A stretch of 35,744 nt of DNA from Candidatus Poribacteria bacterium (GTDB lineage Bacteria; Poribacteria; WGA-4E; WGA-3G), in assembly GCA_003635305.1 (NCBI GenBank), contig PYJE01000208.1, forward strand, positions 1-35,744, given 5' to 3'. The notes under the pieces are model-generated. The model did not search any database and was not told where the DNA came from. It saw nothing but the letters and a program-made list of their open reading frames with translations. Made by a program: the position numbers and the translations under genes. Each line of letters opens with the position of its first letter. The stretch's first letter is position 1. Shown here piece after piece: positions 8,802-15,460 of the stretch.

Positions 8802-10940
8802 CTATGCCGCCTCAATCCGAACCGCACAAAACTTCAACTCCGGCTGTTTTGAAACCGGATCTGCCGCCGAAGTCGTCACATTATTCGCATTTGTCTCCGC
8901 GTGGAACAAATCTCCCCAATGAAACGGCGTAAAGAGCAACCCTCGCCGTATTGTTTCGGTGACCCGGGCACGCGCATAGCAACGCCCGCGACGACTAACG
9001 AGATAAACCCACTCTCCATCTCGCACTTCATAGGCATCCGCATCGTCCGGATGAATCTCCACAAACGGCTCGGGCTCTTTCTTGACAAGCTGCGGCACCT
9101 TGCCTGTGCGCGTGCGCGTGTGCCACTGACTCGCAACCCGGCCCGTCGTCAAACCCAGAGGGAAATCGGCATCCGGCTTCTCTTCGGGCGGCCGGTAAAC
9201 AGGCGTGTGAAACTGCGCCTTGCCTGAAGGCGTGAGAAACCGCCGGCGCGTGTATCTCCGCAAAGTGCCAGGATGCCGTGGGTGCGGACAGGGCCAACGC
9301 AAAGAGGTTTTCGCAAGCCGCTCGTTCGTCATCCCCAGCTGATCGCACGGGGTACCAGCCGTTAACATCCGATATTCATCCCAAACCGCCTCACTCGAGT
9401 GGAAATCAAAACTCTGCTTGAATCCTATCGTCTTCGCAACTTGCGCGAATATCCACCAATCCGGCATCGCCTCTCCCGGCGGCGTGAGGAACTGCTCGCT
9501 GCGGACGACAAGCCGCTCGCTGTTTGTCATCGTGCCGATTTTCTCACCCCACTGCGCCGCAGGAAGTAGCACATCGGCATATTCCGCCGTTTCTGTCGGA
9601 TAATAACAGTCCTGCACAATAACCAAGTCTGCGCGTCGGAGCCCCTCCTGCGAGACTTTCGTATCAGGCATGCTGACAGCGGGATTCGTGCAGGCAATCC
9701 AGAGCGCGCGGACATCGCCTTTTGCCGCCGCTTCAAACATCGGCACAGCGGTTAACCCCGGTTTCGCATCGATGCTACCGGGCGGCAGCCGCCACGCGCC
9801 TTCCACATAGGCACGATGCATATCGTTCGTGACGACGCGGTAGCCGGGCAACTGATGCGCCAAATACCCAACCTCGCGCCCACCCATCGCATTCGGCTGC
9901 CCTGTCAACGAAAACGGTCCCGCACCTCTGATACCGACCTCGCCTAACTGCAAATGCAGGTTAATCAACGCGACATTTTTGTCCACACCGCTCGTGCTTT
10001 GGTTCGTGCCTTGGCAATAGAAACTGAGCAACCGACTCGGTTTGGAGAGGTATTCCACGAGTTCGTCGATCCGTGCGGGATGAATGCCGCACGCCGCCAG
10101 CAAGGCATCTTCGTCAAGGCCCTCTAAATGGTTCTGATACGCATTGAAATTCTCGGTATGTCTTCGGACAAAACGCCGTTCGATCCGTCCAATCGCGAGG
10201 AGCCGTTTCGCAATGATTTGCAGGAACGCAACATCACTGCCGGGAGCGAGCGGCACGTGAATATCCGAAAACGCCGCTGTCTGTGTCCGTCTCGGGTCGA
10301 CGGTAACAATCCGCGTATTAGCCTCCATCGCGCGCCGTTTCCGAATCATCTGGAATAGCACCGGATGATTCACCGCCATATTCGCGCCGATAATCAAAAA
10401 CACATCGGCGTGCTGGATATCTTCGTAGCACGTCGGCGGGCCATCCGAACCAAACGATTGGACATAACCCGCCACCGCCGAAGACATGCAGAGCCGGCTG
10501 TTCGTATCAACGTTATTAGTGCGGAGGAACCCTTTGAACAATTTGTTGAAAACGTAGGAGGCTTCGGTATCCAACTGTCCGGAACCATAGAATGCGAGCG
10601 CGTCCTTGCCGTGCGCCAGTTGGATATCCTGCAAGCGGTTTGCGATGAACGCGATGGCTTCGTCCCACGTAACCCGGCGCGGGGGTTCACCGCGCCTCTC
10701 TCGAAGCATCGGATAGGCAAGCCGGCCGTCGGGACGCTGAAACACCTGCTTTAGATGCGCGCCCTTCGGGCAAAGCATGCCGTAGTTCGGCGCAAGAGCC
10801 GCATCCGCTGAAATCTTGGTAATCATATTGTCCCGAACCGTAGCACTGATGACGCAGCCAACCCCGCAATAGGGACAGACAGCTTTTCCGGTCCGCTCGT
10901 CTTTCATAATGCGTTTGGTAAGCGTTTCTTGTTCAATCAC
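8802..10940 (-). CDS. narB: Assimilatory nitrate reductase catalytic subunit (molybdopterin oxidoreductase, NarB/NasA-like)
   Basis: N-terminal 4Fe-4S CPYCGVGC...GMLCPKGAH; molybdopterin domain (VTWDEAIAFIA, GSGQLDTEASYVFNKLFKGFLRTNNVDTNSRLCMSSA); C-terminal molydop-binding domain; located with nirA and narK homologues. Confidence 0.85.
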   Translation of the reverse strand: MIEQETLTKRIMKDERTGKAVCPYCGVGCVISATVRDNMITKISADAALAPNYGMLCPKGAHLKQVFQRPDGRLAYPMLRERRGEPPRRVTWDEAIAFIANRLQDIQLAHGKDALAFYGSGQLDTEASYVFNKLFKGFLRTNNVDTNSRLCMSSAVAGYVQSFGSDGPPTCYEDIQHADVFLIIGANMAVNHPVLFQMIRKRRAMEANTRIVTVDPRRTQTAAFSDIHVPLAPGSDVAFLQIIAKRLLAIGRIERRFVRRHTENFNAYQNHLEGLDEDALLAACGIHPARIDELVEYLSKPSRLLSFYCQGTNQSTSGVDKNVALINLHLQLGEVGIRGAGPFSLTGQPNAMGGREVGYLAHQLPGYRVVTNDMHRAYVEGAWRLPPGSIDAKPGLTAVPMFEAAAKGDVRALWIACTNPAVSMPDTKVSQEGLRRADLVIVQDCYYPTETAEYADVLLPAAQWGEKIGTMTNSERLVVRSEQFLTPPGEAMPDWWIFAQVAKTIGFKQSFDFHSSEAVWDEYRMLTAGTPCDQLGMTNERLAKTSLRWPCPHPRHPGTLRRYTRRRFLTPSGKAQFHTPVYRPPEEKPDADFPLGLTTGRVASQWHTRTRTGKVPQLVKKEPEPFVEIHPDDADAYEVRDGEWVYLVSRRGRCYARARVTETIRRGLLFTPFHWGDLFHAETNANNVTTSAADPVSKQPELKFCAVRIEAA

Positions 10941-11060: not shown

Positions 11061-12401
11061 TTAGGCGACTTCTGCTTTTAAACGCTGTCTCTCAGCGAGA
11101 GCCGCATCAAACGCCTTCTTCTCTGCCGCTTGGACAGCAGGCGAAAACCGCACGAATACCGTCCCAATTGATGCCACTGCAACCATCGCGCCTAGATAGA
11201 GCAACCCCTGTTGCATCGTGATGCCCTCGGCACGGAAGAGGAAGCCAGCGGCAACCGCACCCGCGTTCCCCCCTGCACCGACGATGCCAGCGACAGCCCC
11301 CAACGCCTTTCTATTAATGAACGGGACAATCCCGTAAGTCGCGCCCTCGGACATCTGCACGAAGAGACTGAAGACTATCATCGTGCCCACAGCGAGGACA
11401 AGCACCCCCATCTGCGAGAACAGCACTAGCATGATACCCTCGCCGAGGAGCACAACGAACAGGAACATCACTCTGCCCCTGAGCCCCATCTTCTTCGCGA
11501 AGAAATCGGAGAAAAACCCACCCGTCGTCCGGGCGAAAATGTTCATCACACCGAACAAACCGGCGATTAATCCGGCCGTCTTCACATCCAAGTGAAACTT
11601 GTCGTGATAGTAAAGCGCGGCGATGTTGTTGATAGTCAACTCCACGCCAAAACAAGCGGCGTAGATGACGAAGAGTGCCCAGACTCGGTAGTCCTTAATC
11701 GCCAGCAGAAAGGAGGCGATGCTTCTGCTCTCATCGGCAATCGCGCCTTTCTCGCGAAGCTCTTCATAGTTCCCATCCGGCGCATCTTGCGTGAAGAAGT
11801 AGTAAACGATACCCATGATGAACAAGGCGACACCGGGAATCACCATGGCGAGCCGCCACCCGAGGAACTTATCCACACCGAAACTGAGCACGGCAGTAAA
11901 GATGAGCGGCATAACCATCTGGGTGACACCCCCACCGAGATTCCCCCAGCCCGCCGTAGTCGCATTCGCTGTGCCAACGCAATTCGGCGCAAACATCACG
12001 GAAGTGTGATATTGCGTAATGACGAACGACGCACCAATCGCACCGATTGCCAACCGGAACAGCAGAAATGTCTCATAACTTCGCGCAAACCCGATACCCA
12101 TCACCGGAATCGAACCGAGGATGAGGAGCCACGTATACGCCTTCCGCGAACCGATTTTGTCACACAACGGCCCGATTAAAATCCGCACCAACACGGTGAT
12201 TGCCACAGAAGCGATGATAGTGTTACCGATCTGGGCCTTGGTTAATACCAAGTCTTCGCGGACAATTGCCATCAACGGGGCAATGCCGAACCATCCGAAA
12301 AAGGCCAGGAAGAATGCGAACCACGTCGCGTGAAACGCACGCATCTGGACGGTTTTTAGACTGAATAGGTTAATTTGAGTCGCTTTATTGTTGACTTCCA
12401 T
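11061..12401 (-). CDS. narK: Nitrate/nitrite MFS transporter (NarK/NasA family)
   Basis: 446 aa MFS with nitrate signature motifs AGWGNLGGGVTQMVMP and AGIVGAGGNAGAVAAG; AAAGGAGAG RBS. Confidence 0.88.
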   Translation of the reverse strand: MEVNNKATQINLFSLKTVQMRAFHATWFAFFLAFFGWFGIAPLMAIVREDLVLTKAQIGNTIIASVAITVLVRILIGPLCDKIGSRKAYTWLLILGSIPVMGIGFARSYETFLLFRLAIGAIGASFVITQYHTSVMFAPNCVGTANATTAGWGNLGGGVTQMVMPLIFTAVLSFGVDKFLGWRLAMVIPGVALFIMGIVYYFFTQDAPDGNYEELREKGAIADESRSIASFLLAIKDYRVWALFVIYAACFGVELTINNIAALYYHDKFHLDVKTAGLIAGLFGVMNIFARTTGGFFSDFFAKKMGLRGRVMFLFVVLLGEGIMLVLFSQMGVLVLAVGTMIVFSLFVQMSEGATYGIVPFINRKALGAVAGIVGAGGNAGAVAAGFLFRAEGITMQQGLLYLGAMVAVASIGTVFVRFSPAVQAAEKKAFDAALAERQRLKAEVA

Positions 12402-12692: not shown

Positions 12693-14270
12693 TTACCTAC
12701 GTGATAAATAGGGAACGAGCCCCTCAAGCACCTCCGGCAATTCATCGCAAGGCACGTTCTCCAATAACTTCGTGGCGGGTTTCGGGTTCGGCCCCGTTTT
12801 GCCGCCGACAAACACATCGACAGCATCGGTGATAACACCGTCGATTTTCGTCCTTTTACCGAGGAGTCCAATATCGGCGGCGGCGTGATTGCCGCAACCG
12901 TTCGGGCACCCAGACCAGTTGATAGAGAGCGGTTTCGTATTCCCGAGCTTCGCTTCCAAATGCCGAATCGCTTCCATCGCACGCTCCTTCGTCTCAATCA
13001 AAGAGAAGTGGCAATAATCGATACCGGTGCAACTCACCATGCCGCGCATCACCTCCGAAGGTTCATAGCGGAGTTCTTGCAGGAGCGGCTCAACCGTTAA
13101 GTCCCCCAATTTGAGACTCGGCACGTTGGGGATAATCAGGTTCTGTTCCTGTGTCAGCCGGATATCGCCGCTGCCGTAGGTATCCGCGATGCGTGCAACT
13201 TCAAAGAGTTGCGCTGTCGTCATGCGGCCTACCGGCACGACGAGCCCGATATAGTTGAGGTCTGGCTGTTTTTGCGCGTAGATGCCAACGTGGTCTGCCC
13301 GTTTTTTCCCGCGCATATCTTTCCCTGCTTGTAGGAGCGTCTTCCCAGTCGCGATGCCTTTGCAGTGCCGCCGTTCTACCTCTTCCCGAAACCTCTCCAC
13401 GCCCCAATCGGCGATGAGAAAGGCGAGGCGCGATTTATTACGGGAAACTCGCGGCCCGTGGTCCCGGAAGATTAGCGTAATGTGTCCGCACAACGCCGCC
13501 GCTTCCTCCTGCGTAACGAATACGTCAAGTTCCGCCGCAACGGTATAGCCGCCCGAGCCCATCTTCCCGCCAACAGCGACGTTAAAACCTTTCGTCTCTA
13601 CCCCATCAATCTCTTTCACAGCCGGCGTGAGAGAGATATCCTGCGAGGCGGCGTGTGTGCAGTTATCCATACACCCGGTGATGCCGACGTTGAATTTGCG
13701 CGGAATATCGGTGTATTCCTTATTCCCGACAAACAAGGTTGTGAACTGCTTCGCCACGTGCGAGGCATCGAACAATTCATTGGGAGTGAGCCCGGAAACC
13801 GGGCATCCCGTGACACCACGAATGTTGTCAAACCCTGTCTGCAGTGAGTTCAAACCCACCGTCTCCAATTGATTCCAGATATTTTGCACGTTCTCAATTG
13901 CGAACCCGCGCAATTGAATCTGCTGCCGCGTGGTGAGATCGATGAATCCCGGGCCGTATGTCTCACTAATCTCGGCAATGACGCGGAATTGCTCGGCATT
14001 GCTAACCCCGCTTGACATGCGAAGCCGCATCATAAACGCGCCCGGCGTTTGCTTCCGATAAAATACCCCGACATACTTAAGCCGGTCGCGTTCGGCTTGT
14101 GGAATTGATTCCCAGCCGTTCCGGATGTAGCACGGGATGTCGTCAATCACTTCAAGGCCGTTCTTCTCGCGTTTGAGTGCTTCAGCGGCGGTTATCTTGG
14201 GGGCCCTCGCCTTTTTTCGCACGCCTGAGCCGCCGCTGAGCCGCCGCTTTTTCTTTTCCAATGCGTTCAT
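12693..14270 (-). CDS. nirA: Ferredoxin-type nitrite reductase (siroheme/4Fe-4S)
   Basis: 525 aa nitrite/sulfite reductase; siroheme cluster motifs CTGIDYC and CPNGC; GCPVSGLTPNELFDAS; AGAGGAG RBS. Confidence 0.87.
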   Translation of the reverse strand: MNALEKKKRRLSGGSGVRKKARAPKITAAEALKREKNGLEVIDDIPCYIRNGWESIPQAERDRLKYVGVFYRKQTPGAFMMRLRMSSGVSNAEQFRVIAEISETYGPGFIDLTTRQQIQLRGFAIENVQNIWNQLETVGLNSLQTGFDNIRGVTGCPVSGLTPNELFDASHVAKQFTTLFVGNKEYTDIPRKFNVGITGCMDNCTHAASQDISLTPAVKEIDGVETKGFNVAVGGKMGSGGYTVAAELDVFVTQEEAAALCGHITLIFRDHGPRVSRNKSRLAFLIADWGVERFREEVERRHCKGIATGKTLLQAGKDMRGKKRADHVGIYAQKQPDLNYIGLVVPVGRMTTAQLFEVARIADTYGSGDIRLTQEQNLIIPNVPSLKLGDLTVEPLLQELRYEPSEVMRGMVSCTGIDYCHFSLIETKERAMEAIRHLEAKLGNTKPLSINWSGCPNGCGNHAAADIGLLGKRTKIDGVITDAVDVFVGGKTGPNPKPATKLLENVPCDELPEVLEGLVPYLSRR

Positions 14271-14382: not shown

Positions 14383-14434
14383 AAAAAAAGAAAGGCATCC
14401 ATCAGTGAGCAGCGTGCTCAGGCCAATGGACACC
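14383..14434 (-). terminator. Intrinsic terminator in the nirA leader
   Basis: Minus strand: GGUGUCCAU (14434-14426) pairs with AUGGAUGCC (14402-14394), inner stem UGAGC/GCUCA (14420-14406), followed by UUUCUUUUUUU (14393-14383). Confidence 0.8.
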
Positions 14435-14466
14435 TTTGTCCTTACCCAAACCAACTTTGGTTTAGG
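14428..14466 (-). promoter_or_regulatory. ANTAR-responsive two-hairpin leader RNA element
   Basis: P1 CCUAAACC-AAAGUU-GGUUUGGG (14466-14445), 3-nt linker, P2 GGAC-AAAGGU-GUCC (14441-14428); both hexaloops have A at position 1 and G at position 4; P2 shares bases with the terminator 5' arm. Confidence 0.82.
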
Positions 14467-14519: not shown

Positions 14520-15128
14520 CTAATGGTGGCTTGTCAAGACTTCGGCTACCGACAACACGTCTTGCGCGACTTCCACGAGCCGCTTTCTCCGATTCATCGC
14601 CATTTTTCGCAAAGCCTGATACGCCTCTGCCTCGCTACTGCCGCGTTGCTGTGCGATGACTTCCTTCGCGCGTTCAATGATTTTGCGTTCGGCGAGATTC
14701 GCCTTCGTCTTTTCAAGTTCGCGCTGCAATGCCCGCAACTCACGGAACCTTGCAGCAGCTGCCTCAATAATAGTCTTCACCCGTGCCCCTGTCAGTTTTC
14801 CGACGACATACGCGGACACTCCCGCGCGCGTCGCCGCCTGAATCGTCGCGGCGCATCCATCTTCCGAGAACATCACCGTCGGACACGGATAACACTCGCT
14901 GATGGATGCCACGCCTTTCAGGAACGCTTGCCCTGGAAAGTCAGCACCAATCAGAAGAATATCAGGACACCGCGCCGCTACCTGATGCGTCAAAACTGCC
15001 TGAGGCATTAGCGGCAACGGAGCAAGCACCTCGTAAGAACCAGATGCCAGTATTTGGGTCAAGAGATGCGTCCGTTCCGGATTGTCATCAATGATTAAAA
15101 TTCTCGTTCCCGCGGCGACTTCTTTCAT
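14520..15128 (-). CDS. nasT: ANTAR-domain response regulator / antiterminator (NasT-like)
   Basis: Receiver fold (ILIIDDN...PDILLIGADFP...VSAYVVGKL) plus C-terminal ANTAR (LAERKIIERAKEVIAQQRGSSEAEAYQALRKMAMNRRKRLVEVAQDVL); ORF could start at 15158. Confidence 0.85.
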   Translation of the reverse strand: MKEVAAGTRILIIDDNPERTHLLTQILASGSYEVLAPLPLMPQAVLTHQVAARCPDILLIGADFPGQAFLKGVASISECYPCPTVMFSEDGCAATIQAATRAGVSAYVVGKLTGARVKTIIEAAAARFRELRALQRELEKTKANLAERKIIERAKEVIAQQRGSSEAEAYQALRKMAMNRRKRLVEVAQDVLSVAEVLTSHH

Positions 15129-15199
15129 CGTTTTCTTGTATTGGCACAAAACGTTCAATATGCAGGGTTAGCACAAAAACATGACTCTATTTTACTTTA

Positions 15200-15215: not shown

Positions 15216-15287
15216 AAACGATTTCAAAAACGTGCAAATCGAATTTTGCCAAGAGAAAACCATAGGGACTAAGGGCTCCGTTAAATT

Positions 15288-15313: not shown

Positions 15314-15345
15314 ATCTCCTTTTTGCTTACTTTTTTAGCAAGCAT

Positions 15346-15460
15346 TTCCTATTTTTTATGCAAACCCGTAGGAGAGCCTTCCCGTTCTCGATTCTTCCTA
15401 TTTTTTATGCAAACCCGTAGGAGAGCCTTCCCGTTCTCGTAGGAGAGCCCTCCCGTTCTC
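15346..15460. repeat. 49-bp tandem duplication plus third partial copy of a GTAG-headed repeat
   Basis: TTCCTATTTTTTATGCAAACCCGTAGGAGAGCCTTCCCGTTCTCG at 15346 and 15395, then GTAGGAGAGCCCTCCCGTTCTCG at 15439. Confidence 0.9.

Follow-up and report, generated by a model that had tools for sequence, protein, structure and literature searches.

The leader that separates an ANTAR antiterminator gene from nirA-narK-narB in Candidatus Poribacteria is, judging from its sequence and those of its relatives, very probably an ANTAR-controlled (NasT/EutV-type) transcription attenuator. The mechanism class is already published, ANTAR antitermination having been described for EutV and NasR (PMC3369931, PMC7496416, PMC8934654); what looks new is an extra hairpin and a setting in which the usual nitrate-sensor partner was not found. 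The DNA analyzed here, referred to as the window throughout, is a stretch of 35,744 nt (contig PYJE01000208.1, assembly GCA_003635305.1) that is assigned to Candidatus Poribacteria because the closest relatives of its nirA gene, ~73 to 81% identical, all come from Poribacterial MAGs.

All genes concerned lie on the minus strand. The ANTAR gene (positions 14520 to 15128) encodes a protein of ~202 aa that consists of a degenerate receiver, a coiled coil, and an ANTAR domain; the open reading frame, taken from a TTG start, spans 14520 to 15158, and the ATG at 15128 is the probable start. Downstream lie nirA, for a ferredoxin-type assimilatory nitrite reductase (12693 to 14270), which is the predicted first controlled gene and whose product best matches the NCBIfam ferredoxin--nitrite reductase family at a score below the family cut-off; a gene for a narK-type nitrate/nitrite MFS transporter (11061 to 12401; TIGR00886, 309.8 bits against a cut-off of 311.7); and a gene for a narB/nasC-type molybdopterin assimilatory nitrate reductase (8802 to 10940), recognized by domain matches, with the NCBIfam equivalogs below cut-off. 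At these positions, the domain and family matches bear out the gene order originally predicted, that is, ANTAR followed by nirA-narK-narB. On the other side of the ANTAR gene, a repeat (CGAGAACGGGAAGGCTCTCCTACGGGTTTGCATAAAAAATAGGAA) occurs in tandem copies at 15340 to 15455, between a methyltransferase gene and the ANTAR promoter described below.

A putative antiterminator hairpin overlaps a terminator ahead of nirA

Read along the minus strand, the recruitment-type hairpin P1 (14466 to 14445) comprises CCUAAACC (14466 to 14459), the loop AAAGUU (14458 to 14453), and GGUUUGGG (14452 to 14445). After a spacer of 3 nt (UAA), it is followed by the putative antiterminator hairpin P2 (14441 to 14428), which comprises GGAC (14441 to 14438), the loop AAAGGU (14437 to 14432), and GUCC (14431 to 14428). 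All of the bases quoted in the original prediction are present on the minus strand between 14466 and 14383, and both hexaloops carry the A1 and G4 that it described. An intrinsic terminator (AAAGGUGUCCAU / AUGGAUGCCUUU; 14437 to 14383) overlaps the loop and 3' arm of P2. In its core stem, GGUGUCCAU (14434 to 14426) pairs with AUGGAUGCC (14402 to 14394); an inner stem of 6 bp (UGAGCA/UGCUCA) caps it, and a U tract (14393 to 14383) lies on its 3' side. The proposal that a terminator with a U tract shares bases with P2 stands, whereas its length of 9 bp does not: AAA (14437 to 14435) is able to pair with UUU (14393 to 14391), which brings the stem to 12 bp.

The leader displays the features by which ANTAR targets are recognized, namely, a pair of hairpins with stems of at least 3 bp and six-nucleotide loops, A and G at positions 1 and 4 of each loop, a linker (here 3 nt) within the range of 2 to 25 nt (PMC8164766), a C:G terminal pair beneath each loop (PMC7496416), and overlap of P2 with an intrinsic terminator; the C:G pair closes the loops of P1, P2, and a third hairpin, P0, which is described below. 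On both strands of the window, P1/P2 is the sole tandem pair of C:G-closed A1/G4 hexaloop hairpins with stems of at least 4 bp, and the chance expectation is 0.18 such pairs per first-order Markov random window, or 0.03 when a downstream U tract is included. For the complete leader, the predicted fold is P1 plus the terminator (-40.3 kcal/mol, z = -6.5). When growing transcripts were folded, P1 together with P2 was the minimum-energy structure up to ~nt 72, and the terminator prevailed from ~nt 76, with the U tract nearing. This switch indicates that the P2 and terminator folds are mutually exclusive, as had been proposed.

Both alternative folds are conserved and covary

Each of the 47 nirA loci found in Poribacteria has this P2 and an ANTAR gene directly upstream, whereas among 28 nirA loci from other phyla, an ANTAR gene was found in one and this P2 sequence in none. 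The P2 loop has A1 in 53/53 and G4 in 53/53 cases; the search pattern for P2 prescribed A1 and G4, yet P2 was present in the 47 loci without exception. In the P1 loop, the corresponding counts are 32/34 and 34/34. Across 34 distinct leaders, 95.4% of the P1/P2 cells are paired, compared to at most 51.5% in column-slid controls, and cells in which both partners changed number 24 in P1 plus P2 (5.1 when shuffled) and 39 in the terminator (10.9 when shuffled). Pairing in the terminator likewise scores well above that in column-slid controls. Six of the P1/P2 pairs show double-sided compensatory changes, and one covarying P2 pair (G-C/A-U) shares its 3' base with a terminator pair (C-G/U-A). The original prediction had been staked on conservation of the A1/G4 loops and of the stems in related genomes: both are conserved, and comparison of related leaders revealed compensatory changes in P1, P2, and the terminator.

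In the genome from which the window derives, the covariance model R1 gives one strong match (8.7e-16; the next has E = 4), and this leader is the single one found there. In relatives, ANTAR, nirA, and the leader are present together or absent together: family genomes that possess nirA also possess ANTAR, and six family genomes without nirA (G001, G010, G019, G023, G032, and G035) are also without ANTAR. Two loci contain decayed operons. In one (L161, from G004), the ANTAR gene almost abuts the tail of narB, the intervening operon having been deleted; in the other (L160, from G041), nirA and narB are C-terminal pieces only, and ANTAR and the leader are intact.

A covariance match in G061, located behind a P-II gene (L159:4853-4941, minus strand, E = 2e-4), was rejected as an ANTAR target; it has no GAC...GTC P2, and its genome is without ANTAR. 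Other covariance matches in various genomes, with E of 0.1 to 1, were treated as noise, and a blastn comparison of a relative's leader against plasmids yielded short chance matches only (best E, ~0.2).

The leader varies in composition and in the genes that it precedes

P1 is not strictly universal. In one subclade (L003 to L007, L009, L015, L017, L018, L023, and duplicates), a small palindrome interrupts P1, with P2, the terminator, and the operon seemingly kept and P0 retained in most members. The palindrome CAAATTGTGCCTTGATGGCACAATTTG lies within P1 in L041, L036, L064, L088, L047, L106, and other loci of genus g2. Palindromes similar to the P1 insert occur in 1 to 3 copies per genome tested; the element is possibly a short mobile repeat, and the split hairpin makes a natural P1 mutant.

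The leader also precedes other genes. In family f4, where the gene order is amt, ANTAR, nirB, narK, a P0-P1-P2 leader lies ahead of nirB, and a P2/terminator lies ahead of ANTAR itself (for example, L154:5045-5129 and L154:5827-5906, respectively, both on the minus strand; also in L155 and L156). In this family, the same switch thus accompanies a different nitrite reductase, and ANTAR may be autoregulated. Genomes G009 and G050 contain a second P1-P2 leader ahead of a gene for an alginate-export-family porin (L157:4924-5002, minus strand; L158:4988-5065, plus strand), which reads GGAACC-AACGUU-GGUUCC, then GAC-AGAGGU-GUC, then a terminator. These porin leaders contain P1 and P2 only, are not downstream of an ANTAR gene, and have their own sigma54-like site upstream, as judged by eye. 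Outside Poribacteria, the one nirA locus with an ANTAR gene, a distant one, belongs to a deltaproteobacterium (L071); there, GUUGC-AGCGUU-GCAGC and GGC-AAAGGC-GCC are found just before nirA (L071:2300-2760), and the GGC hairpin overlaps a terminator.

A third A1/G4 hexaloop hairpin precedes P1

P0, which the original prediction had missed, begins 3 nt past the ANTAR stop codon, ahead of P1 (14516 to 14490, minus strand; ACGCGC-A-UUC-[AACGGC]-GAA-AA-GCGCGU), and is present in the minimum-energy fold of the window's leader. Of 52 distinct leaders, which are related rather than independent sequences, 41 have a C:G-closed A1/G4 hexaloop hairpin of this type in the interval from the end of the ANTAR gene to P1, versus 1.9 in shuffles; L078 and L102, the nirA loci that have diverged furthest, share it, as does family f4, where the target is nirB. 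Both hairpins of the two-hairpin target first proposed are therefore accompanied, in most relatives, by another hexaloop hairpin. The P0 stems differ in sequence with pairing kept (GUAUCGUUC/GAACGAUAC, GUAUCAUUC/GAAUGAUAC, CGCGUUC/GAACGUG); their covariation is modest, weaker than that of P1, P2, and the terminator. The longer leaders of genus g2 have a spacer hairpin separating P0 from P1, and the P0-P1 stretch in this genus is A+T-rich and may contain an unrecognized promoter.

The ANTAR target might consist of P1 and P2 only, with P0 acting as a palindromic operator in the DNA or closing the ANTAR mRNA as its 3' hairpin, and in many relatives P0 is indeed a near-perfect palindrome (GUUCAACGUUGAAC); its modest covariation and the porin leaders, with P1 and P2 alone, fit this reading as well. 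However, the P0 loop has A in position 1 in 40/46 and G in position 4 in 42/46 cases and is closed by C:G, which is the ANTAR signature, and the persistence of pairing while the stem sequence varies also speaks against this reading. Given that P0 is also kept in most of the split-P1 subclade, its exclusion from the target appears unlikely.

The regulator and its targets probably share a sigma54-dependent transcript

A sigma54-type (-24/-12) promoter, TTGGCATCGTTTTTGCT, omitted from the original prediction, is predicted upstream of the ANTAR gene at 15216 to 15200 on the minus strand (23.0 of 24.5 versus the consensus). Of 53 loci, 49 have a sigma54 site scoring at least 18 ahead of the ANTAR gene and none has one within the ANTAR-leader interval; sigma54 activator domains are encoded in the window's genome. 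From the positions of these sites, the ANTAR regulator and its target genes are probably transcribed as one unit, which supports the earlier suggestion that transcription of ANTAR continues into the leader. A sigma70 scan detected two promoter-like sites, 15216 and 14795, the former coinciding with the stronger sigma54 site, and found no promoter in the 112-nt gap between the terminator and nirA (14382 to 14271).

That gap nonetheless has room for a promoter, and terminators between adjacent genes are common; the terminator could then simply end ANTAR transcription constitutively, with the hexaloops incidental and nirA expressed from a promoter of its own. Several observations make this highly improbable: A1/G4 and the P2 stem are conserved, bases shared by the two folds show compensatory change, the chance expectation for a tandem pair with a U tract is low, and the same leader recurs ahead of nirB in f4 and, without a preceding ANTAR gene, ahead of porin genes.

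The ANTAR protein keeps the RNA-contact residues without the phosphoacceptor

The window's protein, the product of the only ANTAR gene found in its genome, matches the ANTAR domain PF03861 at 61 bits (cut-off, 27.3; 9.4e-17); its Pfam matches are ANTAR and Response_reg only, without the NIT domain of NasR-type regulators. Its nearest solved relatives are EutV, Rv1626, NasR, and AmiR. The residues with which EutV contacts the hexaloop (R142, K143, K147, K149, E160, Y164, R168, M172, N173, R175, and R177; list from PMC8934654, read off protein alignment A4) are kept in 11 of 11 cases, counting K147 to Arg, the sole and conservative change; the EutV row comes from a PDB match in which three preceding residues, none among those used, were filled in.

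Conversely, the phosphoacceptor Asp of the phosphorylation-activated (EutV/PdtaR) type is missing from the window's protein: of 52 Poribacterial ANTAR proteins, 50 have Gly here and none has Asp, and Asp is kept in the three NasT-like proteins examined. Asp-less receiver (ALR) domains are reported to be enriched with ANTAR, and the taxa surveyed include Ca. Poribacteria (PMC4395418). NasS was not found either; in the window's genome, which is 87% complete, PF13379 reaches 21 bits, below cut-off, compared to 204 bits for a control, a NasS-type protein adjoining a NasT-like gene, and a NasS query of 73 genomes gave no match. A NIT-domain search of the same genome was empty, as was its control, and is not counted as absence.

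We infer a nitrate/nitrite signal from the target genes alone. The missing NasS and the lost phospho-Asp are also what would be seen if the leader answered some other signal, such as P-II/Amt ammonium status, and the ANTAR gene adjoins an ammonium transporter gene in f4 genomes. Yet every target is either a nitrate/nitrite gene or a porin gene, and the sigma54 promoter already seems to take care of nitrogen status, so that a signal other than nitrate is rather doubtful.

Comparison with known ANTAR systems

One close parallel is NasS-NasT (Paracoccus, Azotobacter, Pseudomonas, and Bradyrhizobium), where the regulator is likewise a receiver-ANTAR protein (the window's protein is 35 to 39% identical to NasT-like proteins), the regulator gene lies upstream of the leader, the target is a nitrate/nitrite reductase, and hexaloop hairpins overlap a terminator; the Poribacterial system differs in that NasS was not found, Gly replaces the phospho-Asp, and P1 is an extra hairpin beside P2. 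At the gathering threshold, Rfam has no match in the window. RF00625 (P11) aligns at 13.4 bits (E = 2.8), far below its gathering threshold of 70 bits, and is therefore a lead rather than a membership; in that alignment, P0, P2, and the terminator follow the order of P11, with P0 on the CUUC-AACGAU-GAAG hairpin and P2 on GGACAAAGGC-GUCC. This order suggests that P0 plus P2 may represent the proteobacterial arrangement and P1 an addition.

The EutV-controlled eut leaders of Enterococcus and Listeria likewise have two adjacent A1/G4 hexaloops, C:G closing, and a P2 that overlaps the terminator, and the RNA-contact residues of EutV are conserved in the Poribacterial protein; however, EutV is activated by phosphorylation, whereas the Poribacterial receiver has no phospho-Asp and its leader has a third, upstream hexaloop. 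The nasF leader of Klebsiella also serves a nitrate-assimilation operon through P1P2 antitermination, but its regulator NasR is a one-component NIT-ANTAR protein, and the Poribacterial sensory domain is receiver-like instead. AmiR of Pseudomonas and the ALR ANTAR proteins combine a receiver-like domain with ANTAR and have no phosphorylation switch, as here, although AmiR is held by AmiC, and no such partner gene was recognized in the Poribacterial case. In the literature searched, coverage of which is incomplete, neither a description of this Poribacterial system nor one of a three-hexaloop ANTAR target was found.

Proposed mechanism and implications

Under nitrogen limitation, the sigma54 promoter at 15216 to 15200 would transcribe the ANTAR gene, whose 3' flank would present P0, P1, and P2 in succession, then the terminator, the 5' arm of which includes the end of the P2 loop and the 3' arm of P2. 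Without active ANTAR protein, the terminator would form close behind the polymerase, ending the transcript after the ANTAR gene. Active, dimeric ANTAR protein would be recruited by P0/P1 and passed to P2 on its emergence; bound P2 would stay folded until the polymerase clears the U tract, and nirA-narK-narB would be transcribed. The fuller picture, in which a NasS-free, Asp-less ANTAR protein acts on its own sigma54 transcript through a relay of three hexaloops (P0 to P1 to P2), under a still unrecognized nitrate/nitrite sensor, and the module has moved between nirA, nirB, and porin genes, has in our estimate an even chance of being right.

Because NasS was not found and the receiver lacks the phosphoacceptor, an unrecognized nitrate/nitrite input is indicated. 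The leaders provide a natural series for the number and spacing of hexaloops, with P0, P1, and P2 in most cases, P1 and P2 ahead of porin genes, and P0 and P2 with a broken P1. The comparative evidence, which is unusually strong, would extend ANTAR antitermination to an uncultured phylum of sponge symbionts.
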